From contig ML991791.1 in the NCBI GenBank assembly GCA_010094025.1, positions 334,977-398,976 of the forward strand: a stretch of 64,000 nucleotides of DNA. Direction: 5' to 3'. The stretch comes from Viridothelium virens. Lineage: Eukaryota; Ascomycota; Dothideomycetes; Trypetheliales; Trypetheliaceae. Position numbers and translations under genes: made by a program. The notes beneath the pieces were generated by a model. That model was not told where the DNA came from. It saw only the letters and a list, made by a program, of their open reading frames with translations, and ran no database searches. Shown here piece after piece: positions 28,948 through 60,363 of the stretch (position 1 is its first letter; every line of letters starts with the position of its first letter).

Positions 28948-31900
28948 ATGACCTTCCCCTCTTCTGGCCCCCCAGACCCACGCGCCACCTCGTCACACAA
29001 CGCCGGAGGCGCACGAAGCTCAAGATCGCAGCCGTTTGCCTGGGGATCCACTTCCCAGCACGCCACGCGGCGAGCTCTCACCCCGATCTCCACCGCTTTT
29101 GCATCTGCCAATTCTACCTCTTCTCGCCCGGCAGAGGCTAACTCACAGCAACCGCTCTCCCCCGTTGCTGCGGCCCAGCCATCTACTTCAGCATTTAATC
29201 TTCGACATCCTGCAAGCCGCACTTCATCAATCTCCTCCTCCTCTCCCTGGTCTCCTATCCTTTCCGGATCGCAGCAGCTTCCCTCGAGCCAGCTGCTGTC
29301 GTCCGCTCGATCCAGAACAATAGCTTCATCATCCAACAATCCCTCCTCGGCCTCCTCCGCCGCGGCTTTGCCCACCGCAGCGCAAGTAGGTGGAGTGGGT
29401 GCATCTGCCGCTGGCGGAGGGGCCCCGAGGGACACCCGAAGTTCACCTTCAATTTCAATACCCCACTCAAGTATTGCCTCGCCGGGCAATACATCAAACC
29501 CAGCTAGCGCCCAAGGAACTGGCCAAGGAGGCTTGTCCCGAATCATCGTCGCTCAGGTATTTTTACTTCTGAGTACGATCAAGGAGGGTGGCGGATCCCA
29601 GACAGAGCAGATCAAGCGGGTAAGGCTGGATTCGTCGAATTCTTTGCAGAACAAAATTACTGACTACTGTTTCCAGCTTGTTGACGGGAGCAATATGGAG
29701 GTCTTCACAAAATATTTCCGCCGTTTGGTGCAAAGCAATTCAGCCCAAATTTTCCCAGGCCTCACACGCGATGCGCAAAATCCAGCCACCTACTCCATAC
29801 TTGTATCGGAAATAGACAAGATAACACAAGACACACAACAAGCAGATAAGATTGCGGAGTCGTTGGATGCTACCGATCCAGAGTTGTTCAAGGACTTTGA
29901 TCTCTCAACGTTCATGGATCACTTCAAATTGGAGCCATTGCCCAAAATAACACTAGCACTAGCATGCAAGAGTGCATCGAAGCCTGACCTGAGAAGCAAA
30001 GGTATGTAATGATATTGTCTGAGCTTAGACTTTCGCTGAATTGTGTCAAGCGGATGCAATCATTGTCAGTAACTATCAAGCCTTCCTTGTCAATTTGACT
30101 AGTCCTTCTCCACCTTCGAACCCTCATGTCATCGACGATCTCCAACCTGGCTTCATAGCCTCACTCATGGAGCGCTTCCCTCAGTCACCCCCAAGGATCT
30201 GGAATGACGAGAGCAAGCAGGCATTGGCTATGGCAGTGCGAATTAGATATCAGAAGCTGGGTGTTTTCCCATCCGAGATATGCAGTGCGCTACTATTGAT
30301 GGAGCTATTCACGTTGCATAACCCACTTGTCTACCTGGTTCAGCGCACTGGACCACGTGCAACTACCAGCCTCGACGCATGCAAAGGAATGCTTGAGTCA
30401 ACTGAACCGCGGGATATAGACTATCAGCAGGTTGCTAATGTTCTGCTTTACATGGTGCTCTCCGAGCAAGGCCAGAGCTACAAGCCAGCAGTCTTTATTT
30501 CGGCTCTTCGCGAGCATCGCGCTGGTCAACGTCTCGATTGGCAGGACGTTGTGCATTCCTTCGATCGTGAACTGGTCAGGGTAACAAAAGAGCAGTTCTT
30601 GACACTGTACGATGCTTTGCTGCCGTTGGCTCAAGAGTACGAGAACTTTGACATCCAACTCCTATGGGGAGGCAAGTGGCGCTTTCCCGAGGCCCAGCTA
30701 TCTTTTGTCTCGGCATTCCTCAGATGCACCAGCGAAGAAATTGATGTCTCCACAATTCCTCGGCTGCGAAAGTCGTTCGCTTTGGACATATTCCAAGACG
30801 CTTCCGACGAGGTCAAAACGTATGCAGAAAAAGCCGTCATTCATCCAATGGTCTCTTTCGATGCGTCTGCCGCACTTTTCAACATCGTCTTCAACTCATC
30901 AGAGGCCTACAATCACGCGCACAGCCTTGGCATCCCGGACACTATCATCAATCGCAATACAGACATATTCCTTGTCGCAACGGCCGCTGCTCCTAAGCCC
31001 TGGGGCGAGCTGCAAGAACTTGCCATAGGAAAACTGTTCGGTCCATATCTGACGAGGGAGCTTCCACAGCACAGCTTTGTCCTCCATGGAATCCACAAAC
31101 AAAATAGAGTGTGGCTTGCATCACAAATCCTCAATTTCTATCAAATGAGTCCCCTGAACTTACTTGTCATCATGGCACACGTGGAAGAGCATAACTGGTT
31201 TGATCCTTATCTGTCTCTGAGTAACGATCTGAGTCTCGATTTGGCTTTACTCGCTCACGGCCGCGGCGCTTTTGACGCAGAGCCGTGGGTACGCGAGAAC
31301 ATGACCCAAGCACCCAAGGTCTTTCCCCAAGTATTATCTCGGTTCCTTGTCTCACGCGCCGAAAATGAGATGCAAATTCAACGAGACCGCACACCCCCCC
31401 TGTTTGTTCCGCTCACGCTCAAGACAGTTCACTCCATGATCCTGCTTCTACAAGACCACATCTCAGATGATGAAACAGTCGCTTTGCATCGCTCATGCAT
31501 TCAATCCTATCCACGACTTGTGAACTATGGAGAGGGCTTTGACGATGTGCTCGACGCCAATTCTAAAGAGTCAAATGCTATCCCGGACGACATAGATGTT
31601 AAAATGCAGGAACATTACAAGAAGATGTATAATGAGGAAAGCGAAGTCAGGGACATCATTGGACTACTGCAGCAGTACAAGACCTCACGAGCGCCAGAAG
31701 AACAGGATTTGTTCGCTTGCATGATTCATGGGCTGTTCGACGAGTACAACTGCTTTGGTGAATATCCTCAAGATGCCTTAGCCAAAACAGCAGTCCTGTT
31801 CGGTGGTATCATCCAGTTCGACCTTCTGTCTCGTGTTGCTCTTCAAGCTGCATTAGGGATGGTCTTGGATGCAGTCGCTGTGTCACAACCGGAGGACCTC

Positions 31901-34900
31901 ATGTACAAATTTGGGTTACAGGCACTGATGGATTTTGCTTCACGCTTCCCAGAGTGGCCTAGTTTCTGCGAAAGACTTCTTCAGGTTCCCAGCCTCCGTG
32001 GAACTGCGATTGCGCAAAGGGCCAACGAAGTTGTCCTCGGGAGCAGACTTAAAGGTGGTGACCATGAGACAAACGGAACTACTCATGACTCGGAAAACAT
32101 AGCAAACGGCCGGGTTGATGATTTCTTGGCCGCAGAACCTGCCGTTCGACCATTCAGTTGCATCCGCGCCGACCCTCCAGTTCGACAAGAACTGTACGAG
32201 GAACCAGATGAGGAGATCCAAGACAAAGTTTTGTTTGTTCTCAATAACGTGTCGGAGCGCAATCTGGAAGTCAAACTGAACGATCTCAAAGAGGCCCTGG
32301 AAGACAAACATCATCAATGGTTCGCAAGCTACCTCGTGGAAGAGCGCGCCAAGTTGCAGCCCAATTTCCAGCAGTTGTACCTGGAACTCTTGCAACAATT
32401 CAATGACAGGATTCTTTGGGCCGAGGTGTTGCGTGAGACATATGTCAGCGTCGTGCGCATGCTCAATGCGCAGGCTACAGTAGATTCTTCCACGGAGCGA
32501 CGACATCTTCATCACCTAGGCTCATGGCTTGGGTCCCTTACTATTGCCCGGGACAAGCCTATCCGATATCATAACATTTCGTTCAAGCAGCTTTTGGTTG
32601 AAGGCTACGACACTCAGCGACTTATCGTAGTCATTCCTTTCACCTGCAAAGTTCTCTCGCAGGCCATGAAATCGCTTGTGTTCAAACCGCCGAACCCCTG
32701 GATCATAGAGATTGTACGCCTTCTGGTGGAACTCTATCATAACGCGGACTTGAAGCTAAATCTCAAGTTCGAAATCGAGGTGCTTTGCAAGGAGCTTGGC
32801 TTGGATCACACCAACATTGAGCCCTCGGATGTGATTGCAACCCGACAGAGCGAGGAGGATGCTGGCACCCACAACCAGCTCCATGATGGTCTAGTGGAAG
32901 GCTTTGCTGACATGTCATTCCCAAGTATAGACGGAGCGAGGGCTGGTGAGAGGTTGAATGGTAACCTCATCCGTGCAGCACTCGCGGACCTCCCATCTAT
33001 CCTGTCCTTTCCGCCCACCTCCAACCACGGTGAAAATACGACTCAGCTTCAAACTCTCTTCGTGGAAGCTGTCAAACAAGCCATGCTTGAGATTATTTCA
33101 CCTGTCGTGGAGCGTTCAGTCACTATTGCCTCTATATCGACTTCTCAGCTTGTTGCCAAAGATTTCGCCATCGAGGGCGATGAGAACAAATATCGCGATT
33201 CTTCGAACGCCGTCGTCAAATCTCTCGCTGGAAGCCTAGCCTTGGTCACATGCAAAGAACCCTTGCGCATGGCCATTTCGAACAACATCCGAGTGATGGG
33301 GCGGACGTTGGCCCCGACTGAAGGCCTTCCGGAGGGCGTTATCCTGATGTTCACAAATGACAATATCGATACCATTTGCAATTTGGTAGAACAGGCTGCT
33401 GAAGCTCATTCTCATCAAGAAATTGCAAAGCAGATTGAGGACGGTATACAGTATCGCATCCAGCATCGATCGCAGCGACCGAATCAGCCATTCGTCGACC
33501 ACGCCAATCTCAACCAATGGTCAACCTTGATCAACGAGCCATACAAGTTAAGACCTGGTGCAAGCGGTCTCAATCAGGATCAACTGAATGTATATAGAGA
33601 ATTTGGCAGACAAACGCGTGGCATGCCAAGCCATGCAGTGAACGCTTCCCAGGATAGCGGCCGACAGGTATCCGACATACTGCAAGACGCGTTTCCGGCT
33701 ATGCCCAATCTTGCGACCCCCTCGGAACCTCCTGCAGTTGCTCGTCAACCACAGTCGCAGCGTCTTCAATCAGTCCCGCCAATCCAAGGACACCATGGGC
33801 AGCCTCAAATGAATGGATACATGGAGCCGCAGAACGTGGCTGACCGCTCTAAGGATCTCCTGTCTGAACTTCAGCACGCCGTACGAGAGGCATCCGAAGA
33901 GCACATCTCCGACTTTGGACCATCAGCACCAACGCGGCAAATATTCAACGAGCTCGTCAAGCTATTAGATAACGAGGCTCTTCCACAACATCAGCGAGAC
34001 GCGCTCATCTGGCAAGCTGCAAGCGACATAACACAGTCTCTCTATACTCAGGGCCTGAAGCGCTTGGAGATAGAAGTCTTTACGGAGCTCCTCAATCAGC
34101 TCTGCACCATTTCCGTTACGACTGCCAGACATGTCATCATTTGGTTGGCAACTGTCGACGAGGATAGAGTCTTCAATGCCGTGGTTACAGCAAACCTCCT
34201 AAAAGTCCGATTGCTTGACATCCATCAAGTGGACACGACCGTAGCACGCGCCATTCAAAATAAGAGGCAGATCGCGTACGATTTCTTAAAAGAGCTACTG
34301 GATGAATTGTTACTTCAAGACCAACCTGCAGCCTTGAGGGCTGACTTCGCACAATCTTTCGAAGCCGTTACCCAAGAACTTAATCGAGATCCCGACCAGG
34401 AAGACGCGCGTTTCATTGTGTCACGACTACTGTCCACAGCTACGGAGGGTCCAGAAACGCCAAAGTCTGCCAACACATCGGAACAGATTGAATACGTTTT
34501 TGAAGAATGGACACGCCTACAGATGCCAGATACACCCGAGAAGTCGATTGCGGCTTTCATTCGTCAAGTGGCTGACAGGCAGATGCTGGGTTCCAGTGAT
34601 GATTCTATTCTTTTCTTCCGAGTATGCATTGATATGGCTTTGGCCTCGTACGACCATGAGGCGTCGATACCTAATGGTGATCTTGATGCAGCGTATATCC
34701 GTGCTGATGCTCTGGCTAGCTTCATTGCCCGCTTAGTGCAGTATCAGGCACAGAATGATGGGGCAGACCCTGCAAGCAGAGCGCAGTTTCTTGACCCTAT
34801 CCTCAGTCTGCTTGTCATTCTGATTTACGACACGTACAGTCGTGGTCCAGACCGCTTCAATCAAAAGGTCTTCTTCCGACTGTTTTCCAGCCTTCTATTT

Positions 34901-51448: not shown

Positions 51449-53692
51449 ATGCCGCGAGATCGATTCAAGGGCTTTCTCGCGAGAGAGCGGAAAGCTTTTG
51501 CGTCCCGTTATCCAGATGTGACAGATCGTAGGCTATGTATTTTCATGCTTTCGATAGACCGACTAGCTGACAGCATCTGATACTAGGATCTCAAGACGCC
51601 ATCAGAGAAGCCATTCTTGGACGATGGAAAAAGATGGTTGCTTCCGAACGGGTAGACTACTTCAATGGGACCTGGTATTATCCTGCCCAAGCATGGCGTG
51701 AACCGGAGTGCGTTGGTTGCCGTGCGAATAATTCCCGATGCAATTTCGACGCTGAGAACAATATGTGCGAACGGTGCCGTGAATTGAACGCGAGGCTGCC
51801 AATGCCTCAAATGTGCGAGCGTCGCTGCGGAGACCACACAGCGGCGCCAACGCTGCCCAGAGACTGTATCCACTGTCAATTCTTTTCGAGACGGTATTGT
51901 GTGGAATGTCGAGACCGTCGTGTACCGTGTACCTTCGATGGGGACAAGCCATGTCAACAATGCCAACAGTTTTATGCAAACGGAGAGATCATAAATGGCT
52001 GCCTCGAACTTCGTGATGCCTGCGATCTTTCTAAACTTAACAACGGCCCTGGAACTCAAGGTTGCAGTCAATGTGTCTTTCGCCGTGTTTACCGAACACC
52101 AGGTGAGTATCCAAAGTACGATAGAAGTTTTGTGCTAGTCTCACTCTGTTCTAGATGTCGGCACTCCCGAAACGATACGCAAAAAGCGCGAACGCCGTCA
52201 AGAGAAATTTGCACGAGACTTCATCAGATCGCAGCTTGGGGCGGCCATCAGCGGTACTGAAAACTGGGTTGGCAAACAAATACTTGGTCGTGGCGGCATG
52301 GGTTCCGTTGGTGTTTGGGCACGCATAGATGCACACAACGTCATACAAGAGGTGCGATGCCCTGTTGTGCATCTGAATCTGCTCATCTACTAATCAGCTG
52401 AGTAGATGATTGCAGTGAAGGATGTTCCTCTTAAAGAGAGCTCTGCTTGGTCAGGCGAGAGCCCAGAAAACGAGTGGAACCAGCCACACATTTGGTACGA
52501 TAAAGCCACGCGGGTTCCGCTCGAAACAAAACTCCACGAAGTGGTCCACCAGGAGCACTGTCGCAATATTACCTCCTTGTTGGGCTGGCGTCGCTACATT
52601 GAGCGAGGCGCCTTCCGGTTGTATTTGGAGTTTTGTCCACACGGCGACCTTGCCGAGGTCATGTATTCTTATGATCAAAGCCTGAACTTCATCCCAGAGT
52701 CATTTCTATGGTATCTTTTCCTATCTCTCGCAAGAGCCTGTGTCGCGATGGAGCATGTCGGTGCACGCTGGCAAGAGCCGCAAAATCCAAGATGGACAAA
52801 TGACACGGATATTGTCCATTTGGATCTTAAACCGTCGAATGGTGAGTAAGGAGGTCCGATGATCCTAAATAGCTCAAGGCAAATTTCTCACCAGCCATAG
52901 TATTTCTTGGAGCACCCAGGGGCGCGGGATTTCTCGAGTACGAGTACCCAACTCCCAAGGTAAATCTCCTTTCCTGTGAACACTTCAAACGAAGTCAGTT
53001 GGAATCATCTAATGGTCTGTTCTGGCGTCTAGCTGGGAGATTTTGGCTTGGCCGAATATACCGATAGGAACGACCCAAGAAATCCTGGATTTTTCGACTT
53101 TATAGGCACAGAGGGATACAAAAATCCAGTGAGTCCGTCAATATTGTTTATACCGTTTCACTAGAAATGACCATGAAAGGAACAACTTGGGTATGCCAAC
53201 CAATTTAATGACCAGGTGTTGTCGTGGTCGAATATCTTTTCTGTCGGCGTTCTTATGTAAGTCTCTTTCAAGTCCTCTAAGCACTATATCATTTGCTGCG
53301 CTGACATGAGCAGGTGGGGCATGAGCGTACTGAAGTTTCGTTACGAGGAACCAACAGAAGATGATCGCCTGCAGATGCGGACTACAGCGACCGAAGCTTT
53401 CTCACAACTTCCCGTTTTCCAGTCCTGGTACCCATTTAATCCCTGGGTCTACTCGCAGGCATTGGAAGACTTGATCACCACGTGTCTTCGGTACAGGCCA
53501 AACGACAGGCCGACGCCTTCCGATCTTGTTGTGAATATACAGAATGAGATCCAGCAGAGAGAAGGACAGTGGAGACGGGAACAATCAGCCACTCCAGGGG
53601 CGCACAATCTCGACTGTGGCCAGTTCAAGTGGCGTGTAGGCTACTCTGCCACCGGATGGGATGAGACTGGCGTAAGGACCAGGCGAGGATAA
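51449..53692 (+). CDS. HMG-like, Cys6-module, protein kinase fusion (paralogue A)
   Basis: Eight exons: 51449-51527, 51587-52102, 52155-52351, 52406-52841, 52895-52959, 53033-53128, 53180-53256 and 53314-53692, 614 residues. Residues 1-55 resemble an HMG box (FKGFLARERKAFASRYPD, then GRWKKMVASERVDYF). Two Cys6 modules follow at 68-103 and 131-165, each C-x2-C-x6-C-x7/8-C-x2-C-x12-C, like Zn(II)2Cys6 clusters with a longer last loop; extra CxxC pairs lie between and after. A basic stretch (RKKRERRQEKF) precedes the kinase: P-loop GRGGMGSVGVW (243-253), AVK Lys269, HLDLKPSN with Asp404, DFG 434-436, GTEGY, and the C-lobe RPNDRPTPSDL. The HRD is HLD here; catalytic residues are intact. Unrecognised architecture; a nuclear, DNA- or zinc-associated kinase is inference. 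Confidence 0.85.
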
Positions 53693-54905
53693 ATGCCGCT
53701 TATCGTCAAGCGACTCACATCACGCTTCTATTCGAAGGATTTAATTCGATAAGATCTTTCGTCTGCCCTGAAGTTACACTCCATGCGTCAATGGCGATAT
53801 ACAGATCTACTGATATCACAGCTATCGAGTGTTGGTGTTCATGTCACAAGTCTGAAATTATACTTGTCGATCACAGTTTTGGTTGGGATCCAGCGATCAA
53901 AATCGACCTGTACGTCACTCAATGTTTTGGTGAGAGGTGTGAGTTCCATGGACGTTTTCAAACCCCCCTTGCCAATCCAGGCATGAGCCGTACCTCTTCA
54001 CACAAGGATCTTCTTGCCTATTCGCGTGTCTTCTTGGGGGTTTTGCCATCGAAATCTCCGATCATCAAGCCGCCCTGCCTTCTCGTGATAGGGGTTTGTG
54101 AGGGTCAAGGTCTGGATATACGCTCAAACCTCACAACAAACCATCACACCATTGCCTTGTGCACCATCCATAGGTATATATGTATACATAGAAATATCTC
54201 AGCAACTTGCTGCTGTCCTCTACCACTCTCCGTCGCTTGGACGTAAGCCACTTAGTTAGCATTGAGACGTATTGCGCTGCAATAGTCCTAATTGATCCAT
54301 TTTACCTGCTCAAGTCAGCTCCACTACCCACTATTGCGTCGCGCAAGTTTCCTCGCTAGCGAACACTATTCCGAACGGAATAGCAAATTCGATCACACAG
54401 TGTAATTACTTTCCAAGTTTATTGACCAGGGATAACGCACAAGATCTTTTGACACCTTTTCAGGCACAATACGACTGTTAAAGACTATTGTCATTACCCC
54501 TTCAGTGGCATTCTGCTATAGTGGATTTATCAAACAGTACGTTTCATGTTTCAAAACCATATTGTTTCTATTGTGCTGCATGTTGCATCACACAATATCA
54601 CAATGAGTAAGGGGCTATTAGAAAATAATCACTACATCGTCAATAGACATATGTCTCCTGGTTCATAAGTATAAAAGTCATGCTTGTTCAATTTCCCATG
54701 TCCTTTTTCCTCAGTCTTTCCTCCTCTCTCGAATCCTTTACTTCCTTCCAGAATCAAGCCCTCAAAACTTTCTCTAGTCCTCAATATCTAACTTCCCATC
54801 AAAGTCACACTCACGTCTTCTTCGAAGGGGTCTCTCAGCAGGAACTGAGTGATCGCAGTAAACATCATCCAGTAAAGCCCATCAAATACTTGGTGGACTA
54901 CAGCG
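53693..54905. other. Spacer between the two tandem paralogues
   Basis: A 1.2-kb spacer. A 151-codon frame at 53791-54246 contains several cysteines but has no spliced or domain support. The last 250 bases are T/C-rich and look like the promoter and leader of paralogue B. No trace of a third copy is obvious by eye. Confidence 0.4.
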
Positions 54906-57595
54906 ATGGCACCACGGCGTCCAGCCAGGCGAGACTGGAATGGCTTCCGCACACGAGAGGCCCAGCACAAGCACCACTACGCTGGAGTGGTCAAGAGCGG
55001 TAAGAAGCTAGCATGATAACGGATATTCCATTGCTCGGATGCTGATATCTTTATCTTCCAGGGCCAAAGGGGGATGATTATATGAGGGCATATGGCGAAC
55101 GATGGCGCGCCATGGATGCAGAAGAACGGGAGGCCTATTTCAATGGCACGTTCTACTATCCAGGGCAAGCCTGGAGAGAGCCAGATGATGTAAGTGACAG
55201 GCGCAGCAGTCTTCTCTCCGAGAGCGATGTATGCTAACGTTTCAAAGATGGCCTGCACCCGCTGTCGCATCCTTGGCCTGTATTGCGAATTCGCACAATT
55301 CGGGGGCATGTGCAGGCACTGCCGGATCGAATTCAGGCAGACCGGCGCCCCCGATGTCTGTAGAGTCAAGTGCGACAGCTGTCGCCAGCTCACAGCGGGG
55401 CAGCAGCCAGCGGACTGTGCCCAATGCGACATCCGCAAGCCAAAGATGTGCTTGCGGTGTCACGAGCACGGATTGGACTGCGCATTCGTCAGGGATGACG
55501 AGATGTGCATCCAATGCCGCTTGGCAGCGAACAACGCCGTGGCCAAGGATGGGAGCAGGAAGGGCAAGGGGAGGGCAGGAGGGCCGGTCGAGGAGCAGAG
55601 GCTGGAAGATCCCCATTCTGGGGATCACTGCATCCGACTCTGCGATGACCATGTCATCATGACAGATGGATGCGAGGACTGCAGCCACTGCTCGAGATGG
55701 CCTTTGGAGCAAGGGCGACCGGCCGCTCCAGCGCGGCTTGGGACAAGGGGAGCTGGTAAGTACACTGGCTCATAGTAGTACTGCTGTGTTTACCGTCGTA
55801 AGCTAACTCATATTCGATAGAAGTCGGAGACGAGGCTCCCAGACCAGCCGCTCCCGCTCAAGACCCTACGCCACGAGAGGTTCCGGGAGAGGATGACGAG
55901 GTCCCCAACTCGGTAAGCCTCCAGCCCCTTGAGGCCCTATCCGAAAGAGTTTTGAATCGCTAACAGTCTTTGACAGTCCTGCCTGCTGTGCTGGCGCAGC
56001 GGCAAGGAATGTGTTTGGGATGAAGGAACCTCCACGACATGCCAATCTTGCCGGGAAAGTCGCAGGTGGGGGGTTGACGTGCAAACCTGCCGCCGCATTT
56101 GCGGCTATTGCAAGGATGAGGAGGAGGACCAGGGCATGGTCAAGATACCATGTCCCTACAAGGAAGATGGTGAAGGGTGCAAGGAGTATCCTGTGAGAGC
56201 CTCGGAGAAGAGTAAGCCCAATATCAAAAATGTTATCCGAGAGAAATCGCGCCTTTGCTTATCATGAATAACGACAACAGAGAAGAAACGGAAGTTTGAA
56301 GACTTCTGTTCTGACTTCCTGAACTCCGAGGTTGTGGAAGGCGACCCCAGCTGGCGTGGGGTAGGACTTGTAGGTCAGGGGGGCCAGGCCGTCGTGGGTG
56401 TATGGGCCAAGGTCGACGACAAGAATGATATCGTTGACGTAAGTCATCTTGTACGAAACATCGTTGGTAAAACTAGTACTAATCACCATTTCAGCTGATG
56501 GCGGTCAAGAAGACGGATCCAAGGGTCATGGCGAAGGAGTACGGCCGGGATCCGGAGCGTGAACTCCAGGCAAAATCCCACTGGTATGACGCAGTAGGAG
56601 GTCTACCAGCAGAGGCAGCTGTGAACTCAGCTCTGAGTGAAGGCGGTTCCATGGGCATCGTTGGGCATCGGGGGTGGAGGTTTGGTCAAGATAACACCTC
56701 CTGGCTGAACACCTTCGATTATTGCCCGCATGGAACCGTCGAAGAACTCATGAGCACCGGAGAGGAGTTGCGGGCTGCAGGAGCTGGAGGGTTGCTACCC
56801 GGCCCGAAGGACTATACATTGCCAGAGCCATTTCTCTGGTATTTGTTTCTCTCTCTCGCAGAGGCATGTCGGACGATGGAAAACACCAGGGACGATCGTC
56901 GGCCGGCCGACATCGACCTGCAAATCGTCCACCGGGATATGAAACCGGAGAATGTCTTCTGCGGCGAGCCTCGGGATGGGTGGCCATATCCAGCCCCTCT
57001 GCTGGGTGACTTCGGGATGGCACTCTGGACGGATGAGCAAGACGTCAAAAATCCGCACCAGTATATAGGTGTCGGAACCGAGGGCTTCTCAGCCCCGGAA
57101 CAGACAAAGGAGTTCCAGAGTGGCCGAAGGGACCAGCGAAACGAGCCCAAGCCGCGCCTGCTGTCACATACCAATGTGTGGAATACAGCATGGATTCTCT
57201 ACTGCGCGGCGCGAGATTTACCTGAACCACCAAAGCAAATCTGGGAAGACGTTGCGGCTGCAATGCGCAGCCCAGAGGCTTTGGCGGCATGGGTAAAGGA
57301 GGAATACTCGACTGATGGATGGCCATATAGTGAGGAGCTAAGAGCCCTCATCCTAGAATGTCTGTCGCCGGATCCGTCCAGTCGACCCACCGTGGCCGAC
57401 TTGATACAACGGATTCGGAGTGAGATGAACAGACTGAACTTCTTTCCCCATCAGTGGGGAAACCATCCACAGGAGAGGAGAAGAGAGTTCCTCCAGGTAA
57501 AGCCTCGCCCGCCAAGGTGGAGAATCGGCCAAGCACTGGATCCAAGTTCAGGAAGGGTCGAAGAGGAGGGGAACAAGAGGAGGAAAACAAGCTGA
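54906..57595 (+). CDS. HMG-like, Cys6-module, protein kinase fusion (paralogue B)
   Basis: Seven exons: 54906-54999, 55062-55189, 55248-55755, 55821-55912, 55977-56211, 56281-56438 and 56495-57595, 771 residues. The HMG-like start matches paralogue A (RRDWNGFRTREAQ, then GERWRAMDAEEREAYFNGTF; both copies continue into a YYPxQAWREP block). Cys6 modules are at 77-112, 142-164 (lacking the sixth Cys) and 276-312, spaced as in A, plus extra CxxC pairs. A KKKKRK basic cluster precedes the kinase: Gly-rich loop VGQGGQAVVGVW, AVKK Lys410, HRDMKPEN with Asp553, DFG 577-579, GTEGFSAPEQ, and DPSSRPTVADL. The tail ends basic (NKRRKTS). First-intron position and the intron before MAVK are shared with A, showing a tandem duplication; the third module region and extra introns are specific to B. 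Catalytic residues look intact. Confidence 0.85.
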
Positions 57596-57978
57596 GCTGG
57601 ATCCCCGAGAGATGGGAAAAGTTAGCAACAATAGCCAGCTATTTAAGAGGAAATGGGACTCGCTCGTCTGGTCGGACGGACTTGAGCGTCTTAGCTCAGA
57701 CACAATTACATGAGAGGGTTGCCGCCAAGCTCGGCCAAAGCTTCTGACGGGTGATGACCGCTGATGGGTCATCCAAAGCAAGCAACTAACCACAGAAGAG
57801 GGCCTGGATGCTAGAAACCTCAGGTGCCTGAGAGGAACGAGAATAACGACAAGGACAAGCTCGGCCAATTCTTCTGGCGCTTTGATAATCTTGTATTGAT
57901 TGCAGGAACAAAGTGAACTATCACAGAAGGAAGGCTTGGACGCTCGAATTATCATGGAATTTAATCATCTTATCATCT
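57596..57978. repeat. Convergent 3' region with imperfect tandem duplication
   Basis: Two diverged copies offset by about 130 nt. CAAGCTCGGCCAA followed by TTCTG recurs at 57726 and 57856, and ACAGAAGRRGGCYTGGAYGC recurs at about 57792 and 57923. The duplication lies between paralogue B and the EMP70 gene, which converge here. Confidence 0.5.
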
Positions 57979-60363
57979 CTAATCGACTTTAATAGCGCTA
58001 AATGATTTTTGTTAGCAAAGAATTCTAATATCTTGAAGGTCAAGGACGGAAATCTCATTTACCTGTAAATTCGCCGCACAAAGGCATAAGCTGACAGAAA
58101 GCCCACCGTACCTGTCAATAATCCATACACCGTACATGCTAAGAAGCTGTAGCTGAAGAACAGTAACCCTGAAATGACACCTTGAATATGCAGTTTTGCG
58201 TAGTAGTAGTAGAGACAGTACGCAAAGACCCAAATTGAGCTACTACCGCCAACGAGAAAAGATTGCCACCACCAGTGGTAATTCTGGAGTAAGGCCTGTT
58301 AGTAAGAGCCAACTTACTGGGCTCCAGCACCTTCGTAAAGGGAATAAACTCACCTCAGCACATAGCTGGTTGTAAGTCACTACAATAGTGACTTCAACCA
58401 CCGTCAGAATTAGTATAACACTCACAACCGCAAAGAATCCAAAGACGTAATAATACCCGCTTTTGTCTTGCCAAAGGCTCTTAAACACAAACATGAGCTC
58501 GATGAAGATTACGGAGAAGGGAATAAGGCCTGCCAGCAGCACGAGGCGCCAGCTTCTGAAGTACCACTGCTGTGGAGGAACTTGACGAGGGATGGGGTTC
58601 GTCTTAATAGGATGGTCCCAGCCCCCCGCACGGATGAAGCCGAACCAGCTCCCGGCATAGACAAGTGGTAATTGGACGAGGAGCCAAAGTGACAGAAGGG
58701 CGATGAGCGTACCAAACGGAATGGCGGTGCTAGATGCTTGAGCCCAAACAAAGAAATTAAGGATGAAGACTGTTGCGAAGAGAAGACCTGGAAACAGTGT
58801 TGCGGTCTGGACTGAATTAGCACTGCATGTTATGCCAAAGGAGGGTTAATAGGCTTACAACGATGACGTTCTTCTTCCAGAGCTGACCACCAAAAGTCTT
58901 GTAAGCACGACCAGAAAAGTATCCAGAAAAGAGACCGGCGAAAATAAACAACGCGACTCCTACACTAATATAACCACCACGGAAACTAGGGTTTAGAACA
59001 CCGAAGCAGCTTAAAAGGAGAAGGCCAGTAGCCATGAAGACCAACTGCATACCAGAGCCAATGAGAGGGGCAAGAATCCCTGGGAAGGGTGGAGTCCGAA
59101 AGACATCACCATGTAAGAGTTTCCAACCCGTCAGATCTTCAGCAGCTTCTTCGTCTGAAGAGTCACCTGCATCCTTAATCGCGTCTGGTTGGTCTAAGAG
59201 CCCACCTTTGTCGGTGCTCTTCCTTTTCGGAGATTTGGGTGTCCTGCGCTTCAGCTTGATTTTGCCTTCTTCGAGGCTCTTCTCCTTGACGTTCTTGATG
59301 TCACCATAAATAGTGCGAGCGATAATGACGGCGACTAAGGAAGTGAGAAGGCCCGAGATAATTAGAGAATTAACGATGGCCAGCCAATGGATTTTCGAAC
59401 TATCTTCTTGATCCACAAAGTAGAGATCCCATCGGTTTTGCCATTCGACTTTCTCTTCTTCTCGGAAGTAAACCGAGTACGTATACGGAATCGTGAGCGT
59501 GGCATTCTCATCAAAGTCATCAACTTCATCGTTATTGGGATACAGCGAATTATCACGCTTGTCTGTGGAAGTAGTATTGCCACCAATTTGGAGCTGAAGT
59601 CCATTTTCGACGGCTTGAATATCTCCTGGCAGTCCAGTCTCATTCCGACCTTCCGCTTCGAGGCTCTTTGCGTAGACCTCAAATCCTACGATTGTTTTCT
59701 TGCCATTGTTTCCAGCTCGGCCAGGAGCGCGATGATATCGAATGACAATAGTGAAGTGGTTGTTGATGTAATATATTGGGAGCCCAGTCGTTGGAGATAA
59801 ATCCTCGTACCCTAGCTTAAAGCCTGCGGCATAGTACTTGCGTGATCTGTCCACGGTCACAAAACTAGTAGCCCCAGGAAGGTTGTCCACGATCCATTCC
59901 GCTACGAACCCATCTGCCACTAGTTCTTGTGCTCTTTTCAGCCCAGCCCAGTCGATCTTGCGGCTGCAAAGATAGTGTGCTTCATCATCATTTCCCATGT
60001 TTAACTCGTAATCCGACAGGGTGATCCGATCACCACGCAAGACCTGCCCGAGGTTGAGAGCCAGGCTTGAGCCGCTAATGAGGTTCGATGCGCCATGTTT
60101 TCGACCGCTGGGAGGACAGACAAAGGGTAGCTCCGAGTAGGCAAATTGCAGTTGCGAATTATCCGAGTACACTTTATTGACAAATAGAGGTATCGCTTGC
60201 CCGTCACGGTAACTCCTAATTGACCAACCTATAGCAATGTGAGCTCGATATCAAGGTCTTAAGAATTGACAGCCGTACCTGGAATGTAGAAGGCGTTCGC
60301 GAAAGGCAGGATCAGAAAAGCAGAAACAAGTGAGAATAATGTGAACCGGAAATCGCAGTGCAT
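57979..60363 (-). CDS. EMP70/TM9SF (nonaspanin) Golgi-endosome membrane protein
   Basis: Five exons, 60363-60279, 60228-58859, 58806-58354, 58283-58063 and 57997-57979, give 715 residues. It starts with a signal peptide (MHCDFRFTLFSLVSAFLILP, then FANA before FYIPG). The lumenal domain has the family landmarks FYIPGWSIRSYRDGQAIPL and LPFVCPP. Nine TM helices follow (for example HWLAIVNSLIISGLLTSLVA, then the eight-helix core with GLFSGYFSGR and WVFAYCLYYYYAKL). TM9 proteins act in the endosome-Golgi system in sorting, adhesion and nutrient or metal homeostasis. The last exon is only 19 nt (coding) and yields the C-terminal ...YSAIKVD, whose K-x-D is the family's COPI-binding Golgi-retention signal. 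That match strongly supports the 3' splice choice. An acidic loop with SSDEEAAED lies before the core. Confidence 0.94.

Follow-up and report, generated by a model that had tools for sequence, protein, structure and literature searches.

Three predicted paralogues joining an HMG-box-like segment, cysteine modules and a protein kinase domain in Viridothelium virens

The stretch of DNA analysed here, called the window below, comprises 64,000 nucleotides (nt) of contig ML991791.1 of the fungus Viridothelium virens (positions 334,977 to 398,976 of the forward strand; assembly GCA_010094025.1, 30.7 Mb in 175 contigs). It carries two adjacent predicted genes, A and B, whose products join an HMG-box-like N-terminal segment, repeated cysteine modules, a cluster of basic residues and a protein kinase domain (Table 1). 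An earlier note on this DNA had proposed models of eight exons for A and of seven exons for B. Both models could be rebuilt with GT-AG introns (51 to 73 nt long in A) and with frames that remain open throughout, and the order of parts that it had described, including the basic cluster between the cysteine modules and the kinase, is seen in both rebuilt proteins. A predicted third paralogue, gene C, was found in the same genome; it displays the same domain order as A and B and ends with a C-terminal tail longer than theirs. This kinase architecture is real and conserved, narrow in its distribution and apparently undescribed.

Table 1. Predicted genes and protein features of the paralogues; positions refer to the window, except for gene C.
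Feature	Position	Strand	Details
Gene A (predicted)	51449..53692	+	8 exons, 614 amino acids (aa); spliced frame open
Gene A exons 1-4	51449-51527, 51587-52102, 52155-52351, 52406-52841	+	
Gene A exons 5-8	52895-52959, 53033-53128, 53180-53256, 53314-53692	+	
A HMG-box-like segment	51449..51693	+	aa 1-62, interrupted by intron 51528-51586; A/B/C profile
A Cys module 1	51709..51876	+	aa 68-123; Cx2Cx6Cx8Cx2Cx12Cx3C(x2H)..Cx2C
A Cys module 2	51898..52074	+	aa 131-189; scores highest within the family against the genome's own Zn clusters, 17 bits
A basic cluster	52178..52207	+	RKKRERRQEK, aa 207-216
A protein kinase domain	52274..53530	+	Pfam match aa 239-561; AVK, HLDLKPSN, DFG, GTEG, PEQ
Gene B (predicted)	54906..57595	+	7 exons, 771 aa; spliced frame open, GT-AG introns
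Gene B exons 1-4	54906-54999, 55062-55189, 55248-55755, 55821-55912	+	
Gene B exons 5-7	55977-56211, 56281-56438, 56495-57595	+	
B HMG-box-like segment	54906..55185	+	about aa 1-72, interrupted by intron 55000-55061
B Cys module 1	55254..55427	+	aa 77-134
B Cys module 2	55449..55691	+	aa 142-222; loop before sixth Cys 25 residues longer, likewise in P0002
B Cys module 3	55980..56180	+	aa 276-342; not in P0002 as annotated
B basic cluster	56208..56294	+	KKKKRK, aa 352-357, interrupted by intron 56212-56280
B protein kinase domain	56352..57433	+	about aa 377-718, aligned to A; AVK, HRDMKPEN, DFG, GTEG, APEQ
Gene C (predicted third paralogue)	L041 4267-6641; contig C44 about 31766-34140, same genome	minus	4 exons, 730 aa

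The proteins A and C align from the HMG-like segment to beyond the kinase (28.8% over 631 aa, E 1e-74), while A and B align in their N-terminal part (36% over 132 aa, E 6e-20) and in the kinase (32% over 390 aa). In gene C, an uninterrupted frame of 267 codons (L041 5678-6481, minus strand) links the cysteine modules, the basic cluster and the glycine loop, and it is free of stops with or without removal of the 69-nt linker intron. These data bear on one alternative, namely that neighbouring cysteine-rich and kinase genes were wrongly joined by the splicing model. Such an error would fit the annotations of the two orthologues from the lichen fungus Trypethelium subeluteriae, since P0001 (the orthologue of A) is annotated without cysteine modules and the annotation of P0002 (that of B) is incomplete. 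However, the open frame of gene C spans the junction, P0002, which was annotated by others, holds cysteine modules and kinase in one protein, and the linker intron has the same phase (1) in all three genes; an artefact of gene models is considered very improbable. The joining of modules of transcription factor type with a kinase in one polypeptide, already put forward for A and B, is repeated in the three paralogues.

Several introns are common to the paralogues. The intron located just before the AVK (VAIK) strand is in phase 0 and occupies an identical column in A, B and C. The one inside the HMG-like segment is in phase 1; its column is identical in A and C, and B deviates by one residue. 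Both had been reported as common to A and B, and gene C proves to have them too. The linker intron also occupies an identical column in A and C; its identity in B is less sure because it sits there inside the basic cluster. Besides these, gene A has four additional introns within its kinase domain (52842-53313), whereas B and C consist of a single exon from the VAIK strand onward, which implies either intron loss in B and C or intron gain in A.

The pairwise kinase identities among A, B and C (35.3, 34.6 and 34.9%) make the three paralogues equidistant, and the tandem pair A-B therefore does not result from a recent duplication. The duplication followed by divergence that had been suggested for A and B agrees with paralogues that differ in module number (two modules in A, three in B and two in C), but a recent event is ruled out by this equidistance at about 35%. 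In T. subeluteriae, the orthologues bear consecutive tags, Q9165_006893 for P0001 and Q9165_006894 for P0002, and are recorded with contigs of equal length; the A-B pair is older than the split from this species. Searches of the V. virens genome gave no fourth copy; the matches outside A, B and C concern the kinase part at E 1e-4 or worse, plus one match of Zn2Cys6 type. The third-position guanine-plus-cytosine content is clearly higher in gene B (0.636) than in gene A (0.515), despite their adjacency.

The kinase domains of A and B are complete, as had been claimed: all the catalytic motifs (P-loop, AVK, H(L/R)D, DFG and GTEG) were found. The Pfam model Pkinase (PF00069, cut-off 31.7 bits) matches above its cut-off in all five proteins, A, B, C, P0001 and P0002, with 64.0 bits for A (E 1.9e-17), 44.0 bits for B (E 2.3e-11) and 64.5 bits for C. 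In the motif alignment, which comprised A, B, C and P0001 and left out P0002, the glycines of the glycine loop, VK, the helix-C Glu (PxE), HxDxKxxN, DFG, GTxG and PE are invariant in all four sequences. A and P0001 carry HLD where HRD is usual, and all four have an Asn at the start of helix F, a position usually occupied by Asp in kinases. With this full set of catalytic motifs, A, B and C resemble other members of the protein kinase superfamily and look like putatively working kinases of Ser/Thr type.

Among solved structures, those nearest to a kinase profile (42 sequences, E up to 1e-8) are NEK2, NEK7 and TTK, with a best E of 1.9e-14 to NEK2, which marks the family simply as general Ser/Thr-type kinases. 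A, B and C differ from NEK and TTK kinases by their N-terminal head and by the helix-F Asn, and Pfam finds no accessory domain of NEK or TTK type in them. Another candidate was FunK1 (Pfam PF17667). FunK1 proteins are fungal, lineage-expanded protein kinases, a trait that recalls A, B and C; however, with E values up to 10 allowed, none of the five proteins (A, B, C, P0001 and P0002) matches a FunK1-type Pfam model, and membership was ruled out.

The HMG-likeness of the N-terminus, which had been noticed in A and B, was recovered by profile comparison. At E up to 10, the A/B/C profile has 23 distinct matches in the PDB, 22 of which are HMG-box proteins (ABF2, HBP1, TFAM, SMARCE1, HMGB1/2 and SOX5; best E 0.0027), whereas the reversed profile used as a control has three matches, none of them HMG. 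Ten of the HMG matches are TFAM, so that the 22 results are not independent. Compared by hhalign with three HMG boxes encoded by V. virens itself, the profile scores 13.1, a value reached by none of 200 column shuffles (top shuffle 12.8), while the probability given by the program itself is just 1.5% and its P-value 0.014. For single members, the best E to an HMG model is 0.0013 (HMG_box_2), and, where bits are given, the Pfam cut-offs are not attained: 16.0 versus 22.4 bits for HMG_box_2 with B, and 15.4 versus 51.6 bits for HMG_WDHD1 with A. The segment thus resembles the HMG box (PF00505, PF09011, PF24815) in that its profile matches solved HMG chains, but it differs by its length of about 62 aa, stopping early in the would-be helix 3, by its weak E-values and by a modest net charge (+4, +2 and +6 in A, B and C).

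The cysteine modules have a first part Cys1-x2-Cys2-x6-Cys3-x7..9-Cys4-x2-Cys5-x12-Cys6, in which module C1 has Cys2-x7-Cys3 and the last spacing is x14 in C1 and x37 in B2, and a second part Cys6-x3-Cys7-x2-[Cys/His]8-x9..13-Cys9-x2-Cys10. Positions 7 and 8 were read by eye, and the last two of the three closing cysteines of B2 were taken as Cys9 and Cys10. The spacing of the first six cysteines (C-x2-C-x6/7-C-x7..9-C-x2-C-x10..14-C, which excludes B2 with its x37) matches twice in each of A, B and C, and among 20000 shuffles this count was reached by only 1, 3 and 1, respectively. Ligand 8, also read by eye, is Cys in A2, B1, B3 and C1, His in A1, in B2 and in the B2 copy of P0002, and Asp in C2. 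Exchange between Cys and His is typical of zinc sites and not of disulphides, so that the exchange at this position points to structural zinc.

The relationship of these modules with the Zn2Cys6 cluster (Pfam PF00172, Zn_clus) is partial. Zn_clus is the sole Pfam family that matches more than one module, with five of eight matched when E values up to 10 are admitted (the best being 0.0019). Its cut-off of 21 bits is not attained by A, B, C or P0002, the best scores being 16.8 bits for the N-terminal part of A and 14.0 for module A1 alone, and A, B and C are absent from the 112 Zn2Cys6 places found in their own genome at E <= 0.001 when 150 of 166 candidates were scored. The consensus of Zn2Cys6 clusters is C-x2-C-x6-C-x5..12-C-x2-C-x6..8-C; cysteines 1 to 5 of the modules are correctly spaced in this respect, whereas the last spacing, x12, x14 or x37, departs from x6-8 in all seven modules. 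Reference clusters were provided by the same genome, as 26 of the 30 best loci fit the cysteine pattern (L052, L054, L059 and L069 did not and were dropped). Against these, shuffles that kept the cysteines fixed did as well as the real sequence in 0 of 200 cases for A (17 bits), 6 of 200 for B and 136 of 200 for C, which makes A somewhat Zn2Cys6-like, B weakly so and C not beyond its cysteines. The place of the genome that comes next for the N-terminal part of A, after A, B and C themselves, encodes a Zn2Cys6-type protein (E 0.03).

In Zn2Cys6 proteins, the basic residues located between Cys2 and Cys3 contact DNA. The seven modules have 0 to 3 of them (mean 1.6), versus 2 to 5 (mean 4.0) in the 26 genuine clusters; this stretch is net negative in B2 and C1, while the counts of A1, A2, B3 and C2, 2 or 3 basic residues, fall within the lower part of the values shown by genuine clusters. 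Membership in Zn2Cys6 was ruled out on the scores below cut-off, the displaced sixth cysteine and the scarcity of basic contact residues. What stands of the repeated six-cysteine, Zn2Cys6-like modules formerly described is the repetition and the spacing of Cys1 to Cys5; nine to ten ligands, and not six, make up a module, with the extra ones lying behind the far sixth cysteine. The module may represent a branch of its own that arose from the Zn2Cys6 cluster. The likeness of the N-terminal segment to HMG boxes is better supported than that of the modules to Zn2Cys6. The idea that the second half of the module is of RING or TRAF type was dropped as well, since the TRAF2 and RING-type matches, although among the best in the PDB, have E of 0.36 and 0.97 or worse, and the position of the RING histidine is not kept (by eye); the Zn2Cys6 protein LEU3 is listed alongside these chains at E 0.58.

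These likenesses lead to a first reading, that of a kinase tethered to DNA or chromatin, already raised in the earlier note, in which the head would bind DNA and the kinase would phosphorylate transcription or chromatin proteins at target genes. It draws on the HMG-box likeness, on the Zn_clus matches, on the score of A against Zn clusters, which comes from module A2, on the Zn2Cys6-type protein that follows the family as a match of the N-terminal part of A, and on the basic clusters of A, B and C, all of which match K[KR]x[KR]. However, the Zn_clus and HMG matches lie below curated cut-offs where bits are given, the Zn-cluster likeness fades from A to C, and basic contacts are few. In addition, the net charge of the cysteine arrays is +2, -7 and -1 in A, B and C. 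Given such near-neutral arrays and HMG-like segments that are modestly charged, protein contacts are at least as likely as DNA contacts, and the few basic contact residues make protein docking appear likelier than sequence-specific DNA binding. The DNA tether, the strongest rival of the reading preferred below, is considered unlikely on balance.

The reading preferred here, with a rough probability of 0.4, is that A, B and C form a small lineage-restricted family of Ser/Thr-type kinases provided with a docking head made of a zinc array. Each cysteine module, composed of a Zn2Cys6-like half (Cys1 to Cys6) and of a C-x2-[CH]-x9..13-C-x2-C half (ligands 7 to 10), would bind zinc, and the modules would fold into a rigid array. 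Together with the HMG-like segment, this array would act as a head that docks the kinase, probably inside the nucleus, onto a partner, and the kinase would phosphorylate what the head holds. The basic clusters, as motifs, suggest that the kinase is nuclear or able to enter the nucleus. Between the paralogues, which have 2, 3 and 2 modules, the main difference would lie in the docking target of the head. A more specific version, in which an undescribed kinase family, so far restricted to Trypetheliaceae-type fungi, would be anchored to chromatin or to a transcription complex by the HMG-like segment and by new ten-ligand zinc modules in two or three copies, is proposed more tentatively and with some doubt.

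Several points weigh against the docking head. Its role is deduced from position and composition alone. Ten ligands are not universal among the modules, since A2 has Arg at position 7, C2 has an Asp as its eighth residue of the ligand series and B3 ends with Cx8C. In pairwise comparisons, A1 and C1 are strongly similar (none of 500 shuffles with fixed cysteines was as good), whereas A1-C2, A2-B3 and B1-B3 do no better than such shuffles (412, 232 and 272 of 500 as good, respectively); with such mixed scores, common descent of all seven modules is unsupported beyond cysteine spacing. P0002 as annotated is devoid of the HMG-like segment, of the first and third modules and of the helix-F stretch of the kinase, and P0001 as annotated has neither cysteine modules nor a K[KR]x[KR] match. 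The gene model of P0002 looks incomplete, and its gaps make it a weak witness. As for P0001, its N-terminus reflects either genuine variation of the gene or a faulty model. Because of these gaps, the full order including the HMG-like segment is displayed solely by the three paralogues of V. virens. Residues 1-58 of P0001 open with SEKPFWDDGKRWFIPN, which by eye is like the last residues of the HMG-like segment (SERVDYFNGTWYYPA), and then skip the cysteine region.

An alternative role of the cysteines would be regulatory: the array would sense metal or oxidants and thereby relieve or impose autoinhibition of the kinase. The cysteines are indeed concentrated before the kinase (18, 30 and 19 in A, B and C, versus 5, 6 and 4 after that point), and the array is separated from the kinase by a short basic linker. 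However, no switch is apparent in the sequence, the Cys/His exchange at ligand 8 suggests structural zinc, and no redox-sensor domain was found by Pfam in A, B and C or by NCBIfam in C, P0001 and P0002. A kinase regulated by zinc or redox seems improbable.

The distribution of the family is narrow. P0001 shares 81% identity with A over 344 kinase columns, and P0002 shares 72% identity with B over 424 aa. Besides these two proteins and P0003, which belongs to the window itself, three word-based searches of a protein database yielded no relatives (521 candidates; the 8000 sharing the most words; 6990 candidates, which gave just P0002 and P0003); as such searches require shared exact words of five residues, they may have overlooked remote relatives elsewhere among the fungi. 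A viral or prokaryotic source was dropped, since no tblastn relative was found in viral contigs (89 pattern stretches) or in prokaryotic contigs (81). The family appears to be lineage-restricted, with two species so far. The earlier note did not know of such an architecture, and no described family was met here either: in Pfam, nothing except kinase models exceeds its cut-off with A, B and C, and no such architecture is described among the open-licence papers listed, as judged by title and start of abstract.

A divergent, restricted and paralogous family with a variable number of modules also calls to mind bait-like recognition. The head would then consist of diverged regulatory domains kept as bait or adaptor, in the manner of the domains fused to immune receptors of plants, and the kinase would signal on engagement. 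A precedent is AtWRKY19, a plant protein that joins WRKY domains, NB-ARC and a MAPKKK (PMC4350883). As described there, it resembles A, B and C in having a domain of transcription factor type and a kinase in one chain, so that the principle of the fusion is not without parallel; it differs by its domains, kingdom, order and NB-ARC, and no common descent is implied. However, no NB-ARC, NACHT or LRR match was found by Pfam in A, B and C, and two species are known in all, which leaves the bait distinctly improbable.

As for the surroundings of the pair, a gene for an EMP70 (TM9) protein flanks it on the minus strand (58246-60250). Just downstream of gene B lies an imperfect direct repeat of 24 nt (57726-57749 and 57856-57879, 130 nt apart, 88% identical). 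A scan of the A-B intergenic region for sigma-70 promoters was set aside, this consensus being bacterial and uninformative for a fungus.

Kinases usually reach transcription factors via separate docking partners. A kinase that holds modules of transcription factor type in its own chain would allow the role of these diverged modules, be it tether, docking head or sensor, to be tested directly, and the A/B/C family could show how a kinase gets steered to its target. If the kinase were indeed held on chromatin or a transcription complex, a single polypeptide would combine the roles of tether and modifying enzyme.

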